This document shows, piece after piece, positions 23,956 through 31,160 of a stretch of DNA of 64,000 bases; position 1 is the first letter of the stretch, and the number at the start of each line of letters is the position of its first letter. The stretch is taken from assembly GCA_009692005.1 (NCBI GenBank), contig SHZZ01000001.1, positions 62,001-126,000 on the forward strand. Direction: 5' to 3'. Below the pieces are notes generated by a model that had not been told where the DNA came from, did no database searches, and was given only the letters and a program-made list of their open reading frames with translations. Source of the stretch: Gemmataceae bacterium. GTDB lineage: Bacteria; Planctomycetota; Planctomycetia; Gemmatales; Gemmataceae. A program made the translations under genes and the position numbers.

Positions 23956-25284
23956 ATGCCAGCCAACCCGAAAGAAAACCCAGGGCCAGCCCCCAAGCCA
24001 AAGCCTATCGCTTGGTGGTTCCTCCCTTGGTTCCTTTTGTTTTTAGTTGCGGGGGGTTTGCTTGGCTGGTGGTGGGTCCGCCTTTCCTCGGTGAGTACGG
24101 AAAACGCCTATGTGATTGGGAATGTAACCCCAATTTCTTCGGAAGTTAGCGGCCCGGTGGTAGCCATGTATGTGGACGACAACATGGAGGTCAAGCCAGG
24201 GGATCCGTTGATTCAGATTGACCCGATTCCCTTCCAGTTGGAAGTTGAGCAGGCGCTTTCGGATTACAAGCAGGCGAAAGCCGAGGCAGAAGCGGCTCGC
24301 TTGAATATTCGCCTGACTCGCGAGGACCGTTTAGCCCTGCTGGAAGGGGCCAAGGCTCGCGAAAAAGACCAAGAGCACGGGGTTGACGCCGCCGAGTTTG
24401 AAGTGAAAACCCGCGACCAAATCCACCAGAAGGAGAAGGATACTTTGGCTTCGGCCAAAGCGCAATTGCCAGGTTTGGAGGCGTTGCGCGTTAACGCCTG
24501 GGAGTACCTCGACCGTTTCACCCGCCTGGCGAATTCCGGCGATATTCCCGTGCAGGAGATGGATAATAAAAACGCCATCTACCGTGAGGCGAGCGCCAAA
24601 GTGGAAGCCCTGGCTCGCCAGATCGCTTCCCTGGAAAAACAAGTTCTGGCGAGCGGGTTTCAATTTCAGCAATCCAGGGAAATCGCTCTGCAAGCCAGGC
24701 GCAAACTGGACGACACAAAAGCAGAAGTGGCCAAGGCGCAAGCAGCCCAGATACAGCCCGATATTGCCGTGGCTGTCAGCAAAAGCCTCGACAGCAAGGT
24801 GGAGCAAGGAATAGCCAAGCTGGCTTTGGCTCGGTTAAAGCTTTCCAACACACTGGTTCGTGCGCCCCAGGGCGGAATTATCAGCAAGCGCACGGTGCAA
24901 CTGGGTTTGACGGTTACCGCCCGGCAAACATTCCTCAGCATCACACCGTTGGACCTGGGCAATGTTTGGGTAGTGGCCAACCTCAGGGAAGATCAGCTTG
25001 CTCAAACGCGGGTGGGACAGACAGTTCATGTGAGCATCGACGCCATTCCCGACCGGACATTCCCCTGCTGGGTAGAAAGCCTTTCGGGTGGAACTGGGTC
25101 AGCTTTTTCGCTGTTTCCCCCGGACAACGCCACTGGCAACTTTACCCGGATTGTGCAGCGCTTGCCGATCAGGCTGCGATTTTTGGAAAAGGAAAATCCC
25201 GAGGGAAGAATTCGTCCAGGCATGTCCTGCAAGGTGCATTTGGATTCTCAAGCAAGCCCCTTGCCAACCCAAAAAAACTGGTGA
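23956..25284 (+). CDS. HlyD/EmrA-type periplasmic adaptor of an export pump
   Basis: The 442-residue membrane-fusion protein has a short Pro-rich cytoplasmic N-terminus and one transmembrane anchor (about residues 18-40, W-W-F-L-P-W-F-L-L-F-L-V). A split lipoyl/barrel-sandwich domain follows (V-S-G-P-V-V-A-M-Y-V-D-D-N and V-R-A-P-Q-G-G-I-I-S-K-R). Between its halves is a long alpha-helical hairpin of about 200 residues with heptad-like character. A beta-barrel domain comes near the C-terminus (V-V-A-N-L-R-E-D-Q-L). Together with the EmrB-like MFS pump and TolC-like protein downstream it would form a channel across the envelope. The ATG at 23956 places the anchor correctly. The next gene begins 7 bases after its stop. 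Confidence 0.92.
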   Translation: MPANPKENPGPAPKPKPIAWWFLPWFLLFLVAGGLLGWWWVRLSSVSTENAYVIGNVTPISSEVSGPVVAMYVDDNMEVKPGDPLIQIDPIPFQLEVEQALSDYKQAKAEAEAARLNIRLTREDRLALLEGAKAREKDQEHGVDAAEFEVKTRDQIHQKEKDTLASAKAQLPGLEALRVNAWEYLDRFTRLANSGDIPVQEMDNKNAIYREASAKVEALARQIASLEKQVLASGFQFQQSREIALQARRKLDDTKAEVAKAQAAQIQPDIAVAVSKSLDSKVEQGIAKLALARLKLSNTLVRAPQGGIISKRTVQLGLTVTARQTFLSITPLDLGNVWVVANLREDQLAQTRVGQTVHVSIDAIPDRTFPCWVESLSGGTGSAFSLFPPDNATGNFTRIVQRLPIRLRFLEKENPEGRIRPGMSCKVHLDSQASPLPTQKNW

Positions 25285-25291
25285 GGCTTCG

Positions 25292-26812
25292 ATGACATCA
25301 ATCCTAACCATGGTTTTATGCCTGTCAGTATTGGGACAGGAAAAAAGCGTCCCCGGGGTCCCCTTGGAGGAGGCAGCTCCCCAAACCAAAACTTCTCTGG
25401 CCAGCGCCATTGCCAAGAGTCTGGAAAATGTGCAAAGCATTCAGGCCAATGTTTCCCTGAGAACCGCTTCGGTGGCGAAGTTTGAGGCCCTCAAGCATTT
25501 CTTCCCGGTGGCCAATTTGCCGCAACTTTTTGTTGGTCTTCGGACGATTGCCGGCCGCGAAGGGAGCAGTATTATTTATCCGGATGTGACCGGGGGCACG
25601 CCTTTTGCCGGCGTTCCCGGCCTCGACCGGGCAGAGTTGAACCGGGTCAACCTGTTCTTCCCCTTGGATCCGTCGGGTCATGTGACCAGCCTGCCCATTG
25701 CCGAGGAAGGCATTCGCGCCAAGTTGATCATGGAGCAGTTGATTCGCCGTTCGCAAATTGAACTGGCAGCCCAGCAATACTTTGAAACCAAGCAACTGCT
25801 CTATGGGGTGCGAACCGCAACCATTGGCCTGGAGTACGCGCAAAAAGCGGAACAAAACATCGAGAACAAGCTGCGTGAAAAGCAGGCGCATGATGTTGAA
25901 CTTACCGAAGCCAAGACTGCCAACCACCGGGCCGGTGTGCTCCTCAGCGACCTGGAAAAGAATGTCCGCATTGCCCAAAGAAAATTGGCCCTGACCCTGC
26001 ATACCAGCCGGCTGCTGGTTCCCCAGGAAGGCCAGCCCATCCGCGTCACCTTAAAAGACGAGTTCCTTTTTGACTTGGCGGACCCGGACCTTGTCGACCT
26101 GTCACTGATTCCCGATTTCCCGCAAACAAGGGAAGAGGCAATCGAACGCGCCAAGAAACAGCGACTTGAAGTTCGCCTGCTGGTGACCGGATTGAAAATA
26201 GCCCAGATTCAAGAAAGGCGCGATTGGTTACGGTTGCTGGGGTTGGGCAACTTCCCTTTTTCCATGTCGTTTAAAAGAACCAGTCCTGGGTATGATGGCG
26301 GCCCTGCCACCCTGGGTGTCATTTTTGGAACTCTCTACGACATCCCGGCCTTGGACATCGGGCTGTGGTCAAATGTCCGTCGGGCCAAACTGGATATCGT
26401 AAAGTCGCAACTGGATTTGGAAAAGTCCTTGCTGGAAGTCGAGCAAGACGCGGGAAATTCCTGGGACCGTTGGGAACAAACGGTGAAGGAATACCGGCAA
26501 AAAACCCGCGAGGAAGCTTTGCAAAAGGAATTGCTGGAACGCCAGGAGCGGTTGCTGGCGCAAAAACAAGCCATTCCATTGGATGTGCTGGCAGCTCGGG
26601 TGGGGTATTACCAGGCTCAAGCAAATCGCTGGGGCGCCTGGTACAACCTGCAACTGGCGCGCTTGGATATTTTGCGGGCGGCGGAATTGCTCCTGGATTA
26701 TGTGGAAAAGGCCGGCATCGCTGACATGGAAAAGAACCGTTCGTTAACCGACCCGGGGTTGTGGACGCGGATGTTGCACGGTGTCTTCGGGAAAAAGGAA
26801 CCCCTGGAATGA
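25292..26812 (+). CDS. TolC-like outer-membrane efflux protein
   Basis: The 506-residue protein has a short signal peptide (M-T-S-I-L-T-M-V-L-C-L-S-V-L-G-Q). Two long helical hairpins with coiled-coil character follow, a pattern of the OEP/TolC family. One spans about residues 145-240 (R-S-Q-I-E-L-A-A-Q-Q-Y-F), the other about residues 370-465. A beta-strand segment lies between them (G-T-L-Y-D-I-P-A-L-D-I-G-L-W-S-N). Such proteins form the trimeric outer-membrane exit duct of tripartite pumps. The ATG at 25292 is chosen because it begins the signal peptide; the frame from 25088 lies inside the HlyD gene. Its stop overlaps the next gene by four bases (ATGA). Confidence 0.85.
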   Translation: MTSILTMVLCLSVLGQEKSVPGVPLEEAAPQTKTSLASAIAKSLENVQSIQANVSLRTASVAKFEALKHFFPVANLPQLFVGLRTIAGREGSSIIYPDVTGGTPFAGVPGLDRAELNRVNLFFPLDPSGHVTSLPIAEEGIRAKLIMEQLIRRSQIELAAQQYFETKQLLYGVRTATIGLEYAQKAEQNIENKLREKQAHDVELTEAKTANHRAGVLLSDLEKNVRIAQRKLALTLHTSRLLVPQEGQPIRVTLKDEFLFDLADPDLVDLSLIPDFPQTREEAIERAKKQRLEVRLLVTGLKIAQIQERRDWLRLLGLGNFPFSMSFKRTSPGYDGGPATLGVIFGTLYDIPALDIGLWSNVRRAKLDIVKSQLDLEKSLLEVEQDAGNSWDRWEQTVKEYRQKTREEALQKELLERQERLLAQKQAIPLDVLAARVGYYQAQANRWGAWYNLQLARLDILRAAELLLDYVEKAGIADMEKNRSLTDPGLWTRMLHGVFGKKEPLE

Positions 26813-27525
26813 AGTACTGCCTTGCCTGGCTAATGTTTTTGCCCAACCTGGCCCCTGCCGCCGATCCGTTGCCCTTGCCAAAGGCGGAGGTGCCCGCCAA
26901 GGTCGAAGAATCGGTGCTGCTTCCCGGTCAGGCAGTGCGACTGAAAATTCGGCAAATTCTGCCCAAGGATGGACTGAGCCCAGGCGAGCGGCTGCTCAAC
27001 AGCTTGCCAGCAATCCAGCCTGGCGATCGCTTTCTTGCCGAGGTCATTGAAAAAGGCTCACCCGGGGCTCCCCCGGCGCTGGTCGGTGGGACCATCAAGC
27101 GGATTGATCCCCCCGGGCATTTTCGCAAACATGGCAAAATGGAGATTGAGTTAAGTCAACTGGTCAGTTCGGAAAACAACGAGATTTCTCCATTCAGGAT
27201 CCATATGGAAGACAATCGCTTCACCACCCGAATGCGCAGAAACATGCTGAACTCTTTGTTTATTCTGGAAGGAGCGGGCATTGGCGCCAGTATTGGCACA
27301 CAGTACACGCAGGGAAACATCGGCATCATTGGCATTGGCGCCGGCGCCGGGTTGATTATCGGCCTCGGTTACGCGGGAATCCAGAAAGGCTCCGAGGCTT
27401 CCCTGGATCCGGGTGATGTTTTTGAAATTCAAGTAGGCGGCTTGCACTACAAACCGGTCGCGCAAACCACGGAAACCCTGGTTTACCCCGCCTTGAACCC
27501 AAGCAAAAGAAAACCCCAGCCATGA
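26809..27525 (+). CDS. Exported glycine-zipper protein of an efflux operon, unknown function
   Basis: I do not recognise a named family for this 238-residue protein. A signal peptide (residues 1-18, ending A-P-A-A) leads into a beta-rich domain. That domain has G-D-R-F-L-A-E-V-I, G-G-T-I-K-R-I-D-P-P-G and K-M-E-I-E-L-S-Q-L, a pattern resembling envelope beta domains such as the TrbI/VirB10-like fold (inference only). Residues 155-191 form a glycine zipper (G-A-G-I-G-A-S-I-G and G-I-G-A-G-A-G-L-I-I-G-L-G), likely a membrane-inserting or oligomerising helix. The C-terminus ends with L-D-P-G-D-V-F-E-I-Q-V. It overlaps both neighbours by four bases, so translation is coupled across the operon. 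A structural part of the pump is plausible but unproven. Confidence 0.75.
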   Translation: MKYCLAWLMFLPNLAPAADPLPLPKAEVPAKVEESVLLPGQAVRLKIRQILPKDGLSPGERLLNSLPAIQPGDRFLAEVIEKGSPGAPPALVGGTIKRIDPPGHFRKHGKMEIELSQLVSSENNEISPFRIHMEDNRFTTRMRRNMLNSLFILEGAGIGASIGTQYTQGNIGIIGIGAGAGLIIGLGYAGIQKGSEASLDPGDVFEIQVGGLHYKPVAQTTETLVYPALNPSKRKPQP

Positions 27526-28025
27526 GAAGAGCCATTTCTATTTCCTGGATGCTGGCCGTGATTGCCGGGTGTGACTGGCAGCCTCGGGGAAAAATTCCCC
27601 AGGTCCCGCTCGTGGAGATTCAGACGCCTTTCCTAAGGGCTGGAACCATGGAGGCGGACCTCAAGGAAGCTTGCAAATCTATCCAGGTCGAAATGGAAGC
27701 CAGGAAAAATGGTGATGGCAAACCCTTGTTTGGCAAAGTGGAAATCCTGGCCCCCGCCAGCATTGTTCTTCCCTATGGGGTTGGGGTCTTCCAGCAGGAA
27801 ATTCGCGTACCCATTATTTTGACCACCGCTGAAGGGTGGATCTCTTTGAGTCTGATGGAGAAAGAAAAGGAAGTCGCCTGGGCCTTCACGGACAGCATGG
27901 CAACTCTGCAAAAATGCGCCCATGCCAAAAAGCCCAGCCTGACCCTCCAGACTCCACGCGGGTTGGAAATTTCCTGGGTCAATGACATACAGAAAGGGCA
28001 AAAACTTGTCTTTGGCGACGAGTAG
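27522..28025 (+). CDS. Putative lipoprotein encoded within the efflux operon
   Basis: This 167-residue product starts with a lipoprotein signal (hydrophobic stretch then A-V-I-A-G-C, with Cys17 as the lipidation site). The mature part, about 150 residues, is mixed alpha/beta and unfamiliar to me. It includes E-I-Q-T-P-F-L-R-A-G, V-E-I-L-A-P-A-S-I-V-L-P-Y-G-V-G-V and I-L-T-T-A-E-G-W-I-S-L. It overlaps the upstream glycine-zipper gene by ATGA and the MFS gene downstream by up to 44 bases. Co-expression with the pump is therefore very likely. Possible roles are an accessory of the pump or an envelope stabiliser; no evidence separates these. Confidence 0.72.
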   Translation: MRRAISISWMLAVIAGCDWQPRGKIPQVPLVEIQTPFLRAGTMEADLKEACKSIQVEMEARKNGDGKPLFGKVEILAPASIVLPYGVGVFQQEIRVPIILTTAEGWISLSLMEKEKEVAWAFTDSMATLQKCAHAKKPSLTLQTPRGLEISWVNDIQKGQKLVFGDE

Positions 28026-29595
28026 CCTGGATTATGCCGGCGCGCTGGGGGAACGAGTTCTCCGCGTCAGGCCCCTTTTCGCTTTGGCAGTGGTCTGGAT
28101 CACTACCGCCGGCCACACCATGAATTTCCGAGAAATGGACGCGGCGCGGGGTTGGGTCCCGGCGCAAGGATATGGATTGCACAGCGCCCTCCTCTTTGCC
28201 ATTGCTGTGGGTTTCCTCCTGGCCCGCATGCTCCCCTCAGTTTGCTCCGCCCTCCAAGGGACTCGGCTTGCCTTGCTCGGCTTGACCGTTGGGTCCTTGG
28301 TCAATGGAATTTGCTTGCTTGCTCCTTACGAGGTCCTCTTGGCATCCCGGGTCGGCGCCGGTTTGTGCGCGGGCGCCATCCTGCGCCTGGCGCCCGGGTT
28401 GCTTCCCCCTTCCTACCAAGGGGTTTCCGTTTTTCTGGGAATTCTTTTGCCTGCCATGGCGCCTGGATTGGTGGGCGGGGCAACTTTCCTTTATGGCTGG
28501 TCGAATTGGGAAGGTGGTTTTCTCTTTGAAGGAGGTTTGGCCCTGCTGGCCTTGGCCCTGTTCCTACCTTCTCTAGGGGAGGAAGCGATTCCCCACAGGG
28601 GAGAATTCTCCCTGCGCAAGTTTGTGGCGCTGATTTTTTTCTCTCTCGTTTTGGGGTGTTTTTGGTACATCGGCCACCGGGGCCAATTGGATGGCTGGCT
28701 TGAAAGCCAAGCCATTTTCTTGAGTTCGACTCTGGCCGCATTTGGTCTGCTGACAGCCATGGTCCTTAGTGGCAGTGGCGTGCTAACCCAAATTGGAGCC
28801 AACCTATTTCCTCGCCTGGTCCTGATTTTTTTCGCCGGGGTGGTGCAGTTCTTTAATGTGTCCGATATGGGGGTTTATGGCGGGTTGATCCTCAATTTCA
28901 GCACTTGGGAGCGAGCCTGGCTGGTCGGGTCACTTTCTTTTGGCGCGGCAGCGGCCCTGATTTCTGCGCCGTACCTCCGGCGATTCGGCCCGCTGCATTT
29001 GGCCGGTCTTTTGACTTTGGCTTTTGGCATGTACCTGGCCCATGAACAAACCCTGGGGTGGAACTACTGGAACCCTTTGAACCAAATTGAATTCAACTGG
29101 TTTCCCGCCCCCCAGCATTGGCAACTGGCGCTGGCCAGGTTTTGCATGGGCCTTGGGGTTGGCTGGATTCTCTTTTCCATGCAGCAATTCCACGCCATGC
29201 ACCCAGGTGATGAAGAGGAAGCTCAAACGCAGGTCATTGCCTGTCAATTTTTGGGCGGCGCTTGTTCGGTCGGCTTCCTCGTGACCTACCTTCTAATTGG
29301 ACACCAGGCCCAATATTCTTTCACTTCCGAGCGCGGTTTCATTCAGATTCAAGCCGTGGAGGAGTACCGGGTAATCCTTCAGGGGGAACTAGACCGGCGA
29401 GGGTTTATTTCGCCCGAAGCGGGATCGCATAGCCTGATGTTCCGTGCGATGAACTATGAGGCGGATAACCTGGTATTCGCGCACTTTTACAACATGTTTC
29501 TGTGGTCTGCCATGGCCTTGGCTGTGGTCTGCGCTCTGGCCTGGATTTTTTCCTGGTGGAAAACCCGGCTAACAGACCCGGGGCCCATTCCTTAG
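27982..29595 (+). CDS. EmrB-like MFS transporter (DHA2-type)
   Basis: The 537-residue integral membrane protein has about 12-14 hydrophobic segments starting near residue 30 (L-F-A-L-A-V-V-W-I-T-T-A). It carries the MFS-like G-L-C-A-G-A-I-L-R motif after helix 4 and a long periplasmic loop near the C-terminus (about residues 445-495). The layout matches the EmrB/QacA branch, which uses proton motive force and pairs with an EmrA-type adaptor, as encoded upstream. The ATG at 27982 overlaps the lipoprotein gene; TTG codons at 28006 and 28012 are alternative starts. Substrate is unknown. It is the last gene of the operon. Confidence 0.87.
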   Translation: MTYRKGKNLSLATSSLDYAGALGERVLRVRPLFALAVVWITTAGHTMNFREMDAARGWVPAQGYGLHSALLFAIAVGFLLARMLPSVCSALQGTRLALLGLTVGSLVNGICLLAPYEVLLASRVGAGLCAGAILRLAPGLLPPSYQGVSVFLGILLPAMAPGLVGGATFLYGWSNWEGGFLFEGGLALLALALFLPSLGEEAIPHRGEFSLRKFVALIFFSLVLGCFWYIGHRGQLDGWLESQAIFLSSTLAAFGLLTAMVLSGSGVLTQIGANLFPRLVLIFFAGVVQFFNVSDMGVYGGLILNFSTWERAWLVGSLSFGAAAALISAPYLRRFGPLHLAGLLTLAFGMYLAHEQTLGWNYWNPLNQIEFNWFPAPQHWQLALARFCMGLGVGWILFSMQQFHAMHPGDEEEAQTQVIACQFLGGACSVGFLVTYLLIGHQAQYSFTSERGFIQIQAVEEYRVILQGELDRRGFISPEAGSHSLMFRAMNYEADNLVFAHFYNMFLWSAMALAVVCALAWIFSWWKTRLTDPGPIP

Positions 29596-30590: not shown

Positions 30591-31160
30591 TCACGAACTG
30601 GTTTTTCCTGGAACCCAAAGTATGTCGTTCCTGCCTTGATTGTTGTAGATCCTAGCCATGACGAAGAAAAGATCAGACAGGCGATTCAAAAAGATGAGTG
30701 AATCGGGGTTGATGGCTTCCTGAGAGGCAAGGGTGACGAGATCGCGCTCGGCCCTTCTGCAAACGGCTCTGGCCAAATGGGTCCAGCATGAGACCTGTGA
30801 TCCGCCGGGAAGAATAAAGCTCGTGAGCGGCTGGAGTTTTTCATTCCACTGGTCAATTTTTTTCTCCAGCTTTTCCCAAAGGGCTTTGCCAATGCGAAGG
30901 CTTTCCCCAGCTTTTGCGGTATCAATGGGCAGACAAAGATCGGCGCCCAAGTCGAAAAGGTTGTTCTGAACTTCGCGCAAAAATTCGTGATCGGGTCCGG
31001 GTGGCAACTGGCTCGCCAGGACTCCCAAAAGTGAGTTGAGTTCATCCACCGACCCCATGGCGGTTACCCTGGGATGGTTTTTGGGGACCATGTCGCCACT
31101 CCCCAGAGCGGTTTTTCCCTGATCCCCTACGCGGGTGTAAATGCGGGATAGGTAAACCAT
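30591..31160 (-). CDS. Cob(I)alamin adenosyltransferase, PduO type
   Basis: The enzyme transfers the adenosyl group of ATP to cob(I)alamin, making adenosylcobalamin. The 189-residue protein has all PduO/MMAB signatures: Y-T-R-V-G-D-Q-G-K-T at the N-terminus, G-S-V-D-E-L-N-S near residue 36, F-I-L-P-G-G-S, A-R-A-V-C-R-R-A-E-R, and L-N-R-L-S-D-L-F-F near the C-terminus. It sits about 110 bases downstream of the B12-dependent ribonucleotide reductase gene on the same strand, although a strong terminator separates them, so it probably has its own promoter. Its product is the cofactor of that reductase, which explains the neighbourhood. Confidence 0.95.
   Translation of the reverse strand: MVYLSRIYTRVGDQGKTALGSGDMVPKNHPRVTAMGSVDELNSLLGVLASQLPPGPDHEFLREVQNNLFDLGADLCLPIDTAKAGESLRIGKALWEKLEKKIDQWNEKLQPLTSFILPGGSQVSCWTHLARAVCRRAERDLVTLASQEAINPDSLIFLNRLSDLFFVMARIYNNQGRNDILWVPGKTSS

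Follow-up and report, generated by a model that had tools for sequence, protein, structure and literature searches.

A conserved five-gene variant of the EmrAB-TolC-type tripartite pump in part of two planctomycete families

Introduction

A 64,000-nucleotide stretch of the genome of a Gemmataceae bacterium (contig SHZZ01000001.1, positions 62,001 to 126,000; hereafter the window) contains an operon in which the genes for an HlyD/EmrA-type adaptor (gene 1), a TolC-like channel (gene 2) and a transporter of the major facilitator superfamily (MFS; gene 5) are accompanied by genes for an exported glycine-zipper protein (gene 3) and a lipoprotein (gene 4). The question raised by this locus is whether the two additional proteins are parts of the pump. 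The comparisons presented here reveal a real and conserved variant of the MFS tripartite pump with five components, found within part of two planctomycete families and on one plasmid. This variant is apparently undescribed, as a literature search of open-licence papers retrieved no description of a five-gene pump. Genes 3 and 4 are best read as putative new parts of the pump, because they are constant, under selection, without known family and absent from canonical EmrAB operons.

Results

The two additional genes invariably accompany the pump

The five genes form a single block on the + strand (23956-29595; Table 1, with coordinates and translations from open reading frame (ORF) calls), with successive spacings of +7, -4 (ATGA), -4 (ATGA) and -44 bases. 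The original prediction of 4-base overlaps between genes 2-3 and 3-4 and a 44-base overlap between genes 4-5 was exact to the base. The 4-base stop/start overlap of genes 3 and 4 is present in all operons examined, and that of genes 2 and 3 in most of them.

Of 59 relatives, six carry gene 3, and the identical six carry gene 4 and the MFS gene; all six show the same five-gene order, a contig end cutting the operon inside the MFS gene in two. Scanning of named genome contigs with the alignment of TolC-like proteins yielded 23 loci, every one of them arranged as HlyD-TolC-gene 3-gene 4-MFS as far as the contig extends; a single-sequence pattern scan of genome contigs with gene 3 gave no match. 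Leaving aside records with doubtful labels of metagenome-assembled genomes (MAGs), the loci all come from Planctomycetota, among them that of the isolate Singulisphaera sp. GP187. In a survey of genomes partly overlapping with these loci, gene 3 was present in 19 of the 95 genomes of the family of the window genome and in 7 of the 45 of a sister family (that of genome G057), and in all 26 genomes gene 2 precedes it and genes 4 and 5 follow, contig ends excepted. No operon was found in 391 other genomes of the phylum, where a single marginal match contained internal stops, and the MFS profile gave zero matches in 293. A copy is also carried by plasmid pPL62-3 (Planctomyces sp. SH-PL62), where the annotation reads HlyD, TolC, two hypothetical proteins and MFS. 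Thus, the expected recurrence of the five-gene order in Planctomycetota was borne out, and its conservation, in 26 or more of the genomes surveyed as well as a plasmid, is far beyond chance.

Several copies deserve separate mention. The plasmid copy (L066, 2151-4722) lies near nitrite/sulfite reductase and phosphoadenylyl-sulfate reductase genes. In Singulisphaera sp. GP187 (L054, 6480-7800), the adaptor gene contains in-frame stops and the other four genes are open, pointing to a disrupted copy or to an error in sequencing, and in one MAG (L048, 9260-9965; L091) gene 3 is split across two frames, with genes 1, 2, 4 and 5 open, through frameshift or assembly error. The operon proteins encoded in L035 and L040 (both with the title Candidatus Kuenenia) and in L050 (with the title Bacteroidales) closely resemble planctomycete copies from the window genome's own family, and two of these records, L040 and L050, represent genomes assigned to it, so the organism labels look wrong.

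Purifying selection on genes 3 and 4 is strong: among close relatives, the ratio of nonsynonymous to synonymous substitution rates is 0.00-0.21 for gene 3 and 0.05-0.27 for gene 4, values that match those of the pump genes or slightly exceed them. Pairwise distances of the five genes correlate across 14 operons (r 0.66-0.95). No conserved neighbor or regulator hinting at a substrate was found across the loci compared, and the small gene clusters common to three or four loci were discarded as reflecting close relatives or antisense shadow ORFs. These data bear on the possibility that genes 3 and 4 act elsewhere in the envelope and are simply carried along with the pump genes. Such a scenario is very improbable, since the extras and the pump were never found apart, in either direction, in the 23 named loci and 26 survey genomes, despite the flanking genes changing from locus to locus, and since the genes overlap.

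The adaptor, channel and transporter constitute a divergent EmrAB-type pump

Profile searches recognized the families of all three pump proteins, in agreement with their initial designation as a complete tripartite set. The adaptor matched HlyD_D23 in Pfam (2e-18) and EmrA in NCBIfam (TIGR00998, 2.3e-59, 201 bits, under the cut-off of 390.8), and its profile matched EmrA structures (1.4e-51 for 8zar). The channel matched OEP in Pfam (PF02321, E 9.6e-10, 39 bits versus a cut-off of 22). The MFS protein, too diverged, gave no match in the Pfam scan and only weakly matched EmrB in NCBIfam (TIGR00711, 4e-4, 19.2 bits, below the 230.2-bit cut-off), a model matched by 7 of the 20 members of its family (best 5.4e-13). 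Profile-profile comparison of this family with canonical planctomycete EmrB gave a probability of 98.6% (E 6.8e-16, 436 columns) and, because of this match and the 14 hydrophobic segments counted, gene 5 is confirmed as DHA2/EmrB-like. A loop of 66 residues, flanked by hydrophobic segments 420-438 and 505-523, aligns with that of EmrB, and a conserved Arg in segment 4 aligns with its EmrB counterpart in the profile-profile alignment. In EmrB, the adaptor docks on the long loop that joins the last two segments (PMC13139468).

The operon therefore resembles those of EmrAB-TolC of E. coli, VceCAB and EmrCAB in its EmrA-type adaptor, its 14-segment DHA2-type MFS protein with a long loop and its TolC-family channel, which is encoded within the operon as in VceCAB and EmrCAB but unlike in EmrAB-TolC. 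It differs from all of them in the two extra conserved genes, and hence in having more than three components, whereas from EmrAB it also departs in that transporter and adaptor score well under the NCBIfam cut-offs. A further difference lies in segment 1, where canonical EmrB proteins of relatives read VLDT(T/S)IANVAL and EmrB uses Asp D29 in its transport cycle. None of the 20 members of the MFS family has this LDTT-type Asp; in its place, all 20 carry a GHT....RE-type motif with invariant H45, T46 and E51. On a presumed residue equivalence in transmembrane segment 1, H45-T46 and E51 are possibly candidates for the proton-linked role of D29.

Such a divergent transporter, lacking the LDTT-type Asp and with invariant H45 and E51, would fit an unusual substrate or coupling, and this favors the main rival explanation, namely that the lipoprotein, together with gene 3, extracts a hydrophobic substrate such as a lipid or carries it to the pump. 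Pairing of a DHA2 transporter with a lipoprotein has precedent: work cited in PMC13139468 suggests such a role for the lipoprotein that accompanies the mycobacterial transporter Rv1410/MHAS2168. However, the adaptor and the channel are the most conserved parts of the operon, so that a closed tube seems to be retained, and the predicted structure of gene 4 appears as a compact alpha/beta domain that is not obviously a lipid-binding half-barrel. Substrate handling by genes 3 and 4 is therefore considered unlikely, albeit the strongest of the competing explanations.

The additional genes belong to a pump clade and not to planctomycete pumps in general

In a phylogenetic tree, the adaptors of the five-gene operons group in a single clade (support 0.947), which a long branch separates from canonical EmrA. 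Several relatives also encode more distant EmrA-like adaptors (25-42% identical), some of them adjoining EmrB proteins that pass the curated cut-off. In the four regions inspected (L158, L159, L162 and L163), the adaptor gene lies directly beside that of EmrB, and genes 3 and 4 are absent. These canonical pairs corroborate that the glycine-zipper protein and the lipoprotein fall outside the known EmrAB-TolC set and, together with the separate adaptor clade, indicate that the extras belong to this pump clade.

The original prediction had proposed that both proteins are new structural parts helping the pump to cross an unusual planctomycete envelope. The first half of this proposal, a role as pump parts, is plausible and gains from the conserved gene order. 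The second half was not supported: the cassette is missing from most sampled planctomycetes, and the same families also have canonical EmrA-EmrB pairs that lack genes 3 and 4. A general service to the planctomycete envelope was rejected on account of this patchy distribution, and the envelope argument fails because the two genes are tied to one pump clade. Within the five-gene clade, the extras did not prove dispensable, were not missing from most homologous operons and showed no strong match to unrelated families.

Genes 3 and 4 match no known family

Neither protein gave a credible match in Pfam, NCBIfam or the PDB as a single sequence, nor in Pfam or the PDB as a family alignment. The weak matches that did appear (pantothenate kinase, aldolase, L9, Macro) were dismissed as chance, with E values of 0.003-1 and disagreement among family members. 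The profile and structure searches proposed for both proteins thus led to no known family.

Gene 3 encodes a signal peptide, a beta domain, two Gly-rich hydrophobic segments and a conserved L-x-PGD strand, in this order. The hydrophobic segments (146-164 and 173-191, with family averages of 1.3 and 1.7) are inserted before the last strands as a glycine-zipper hairpin. Foldseek returned no significant match for the gene 3 model. Four VirB10-type chains were among the top 13 structural matches (Z 3.0-3.8, root-mean-square deviation 3.4-8.7), obtained with a model of low confidence (predicted local distance difference test, pLDDT, 60). The layout of gene 3, with a helical hairpin inserted in a beta domain before its last strands, is similar to that of the C-terminal domain of VirB10/TrbI, whose hairpin crosses the outer membrane in known type IV secretion system complexes. 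By contrast, gene 3 has no TrbI (PF03743) match in Pfam, no type IV secretion genes lie near the operon, and homology to VirB10 was rejected because hhalign comparisons with the MPF_T (VirB10/TrbI) and MPF_F (TraB) sets were not significant, a VirB10-TraB positive control reaching E 7.5e-7. The best sequence match of the Gly-rich hairpin of gene 3, although insignificant, was to TraT (PF05818), in 2 of 21 members (best E 0.39) and in the PDB (E 0.34, hairpin only); the beta domain of gene 3 is unmatched in TraT, and the window copy of gene 3 has no lipobox. TraT is a surface-exclusion lipoprotein of the outer membrane, in which a ring made by its helices is anchored (PMC11733297).

In gene 4, the lipobox Gly-Cys at the end of the signal peptide, read by eye, is invariant in 22 family members. 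The AlphaFold2 model has a confident core (96 residues with pLDDT >= 90) predicted to fold as helix, three strands, helix and two strands. Ring-building domains of PrgK/EscJ and FliF ranked first in Foldseek searches with this core (PrgK probability 0.99, E 4e-3), and PrgK/FliF domains reached VIA Z scores of 6.4-6.9. VIA Z values as a whole were 6-9, a range common for small alpha/beta domains, and were tied with CamS, ribosomal S3, acyl-ligase and MamB domains. A ring-building domain was accordingly not adopted for gene 4, and these ties with unrelated families indicate only a common alpha/beta layout, with no family assigned.

A more far-reaching reading would be a secretion-system-like outer membrane core complex around or on the TolC-like channel: gene 3 would be a ring protein of VirB10 type with hairpins spanning the outer membrane, and gene 4 would make a lipid-anchored ring. 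Given the negative sequence tests, the VirB10 resemblance is retained as a speculative reading only, and an improbable one.

Neighboring genes in the window

Downstream of the operon, a cobalamin adenosyltransferase gene adjoins the gene for a class II (B12-dependent) ribonucleotide reductase, placing a cofactor-making enzyme adjacent to a cofactor-using one. Upstream, an apparently exported ORF without Pfam match, if its longest start is taken, shares about 100 bases with the end of the IMP dehydrogenase gene.

Table 1. Genes of the five-gene operon and neighboring features in the window (aa, amino acids; TM, transmembrane).
Feature	Position	Strand	Remarks
Gene 1, HlyD/EmrA-type periplasmic adaptor, 442 aa	23956-25284	+	One N-terminal TM segment (~18-36), long helical hairpin
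Gene 2, TolC-like outer membrane factor, 506 aa	25292-26812	+	PF02321; window copy without clear lipobox
Gene 3, exported beta-rich Gly-zipper protein, 238 aa	26809-27525	+	Two hydrophobic Gly-rich segments; matches no known family
Gene 4, lipoprotein, 167 aa	27522-28025	+	Lipobox G16 C17; alpha/beta domain ~residues 41-160; matches no known family
Gene 5, 14-segment MFS protein, divergent DHA2/EmrB type, 537 aa	27982-29595	+	Long loop between last two segments
Exported ORF (apparent), 261 aa	21208-21993	-	
Cobalamin adenosyltransferase	30591-31160	-	
Class II ribonucleotide reductase, 1232 aa	31269-34967	-	

Discussion

The explanation that we favor, with somewhat better than even confidence, is that the operon encodes an EmrAB-TolC-type efflux pump, driven by protons and built from five dedicated components, of which genes 3 and 4 would hold, insert or stabilize the channel. 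It builds on gene content, order, co-occurrence, selection, the lipobox, the hydrophobic hairpin and the separate clade, all of them observed directly. In the proposed mechanism, for which membrane assignment, contacts, oligomeric state and the direction and energy of transport are predicted, the MFS protein would move substrate from the inner membrane or the cytoplasm into the tube formed by the EmrA-like adaptor, which would in turn dock on the TolC-like channel. The lipid-anchored gene 4 product would bind the periplasmic surface of the channel, whereas gene 3 would be an exported beta-domain protein with its glycine-zipper helix hairpin buried in a membrane, probably the outer membrane, where it would serve as a ring, a collar or an assembly part, both proteins acting jointly on the channel.

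The role proposed for gene 4 follows the analogy with YbjP, a lipoprotein that binds E. coli TolC in a 3:3 ratio and provides the lipid anchor that TolC lacks (PMC13082787, PMC13095208). Gene 4 likewise encodes a lipoprotein beside a TolC-like protein which, across operons, is mostly devoid of a lipobox, as is E. coli TolC, suggesting a YbjP-like partner of the channel. Unlike YbjP, gene 4 is encoded within the pump operon and strictly conserved with the pump. Neither the window copy of gene 4 nor the 22 family members matched DUF3828 (PF12883), the family of YbjP, at E <= 1; YbjP was not among the structural matches listed for gene 4, which excludes nothing.

The analogy also lends itself to another explanation, in which genes 3 and 4 serve assembly or targeting, acting as chaperones that accompany the channel or the adaptor or help to insert it, and stay outside the finished pump. 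The same co-occurrence and selection data would agree with it, and TolC chaperoning is one of the functions proposed for YbjP (PMC13082787). Nevertheless, no known chaperone family was matched, and the strict pairing is with one pump clade only, so that this explanation appears doubtful, slightly more so than substrate handling.

Three points weigh against a five-component pump in which the extras serve the channel. Two of the TolC-like proteins (L048 and L050) seem to carry their own lipobox and their operons still keep gene 4, suggesting that lipid replacement is not the whole story. The model of gene 3 is weak, the hairpin region being among its least certain parts. YbjP is dispensable for efflux in E. 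coli under standard laboratory conditions (PMC13082787).

MFS tripartite pumps are textbook three-part machines, and the clade described here offers a natural and testable case of accessory subunits, with two unnamed protein families that are always encoded together with the pump. The case is timely, as a lipoprotein partner of TolC whose function is unclear has just been found in E. coli. Because the extras are strictly conserved, their deletion may give a phenotype that deletion of ybjP does not.

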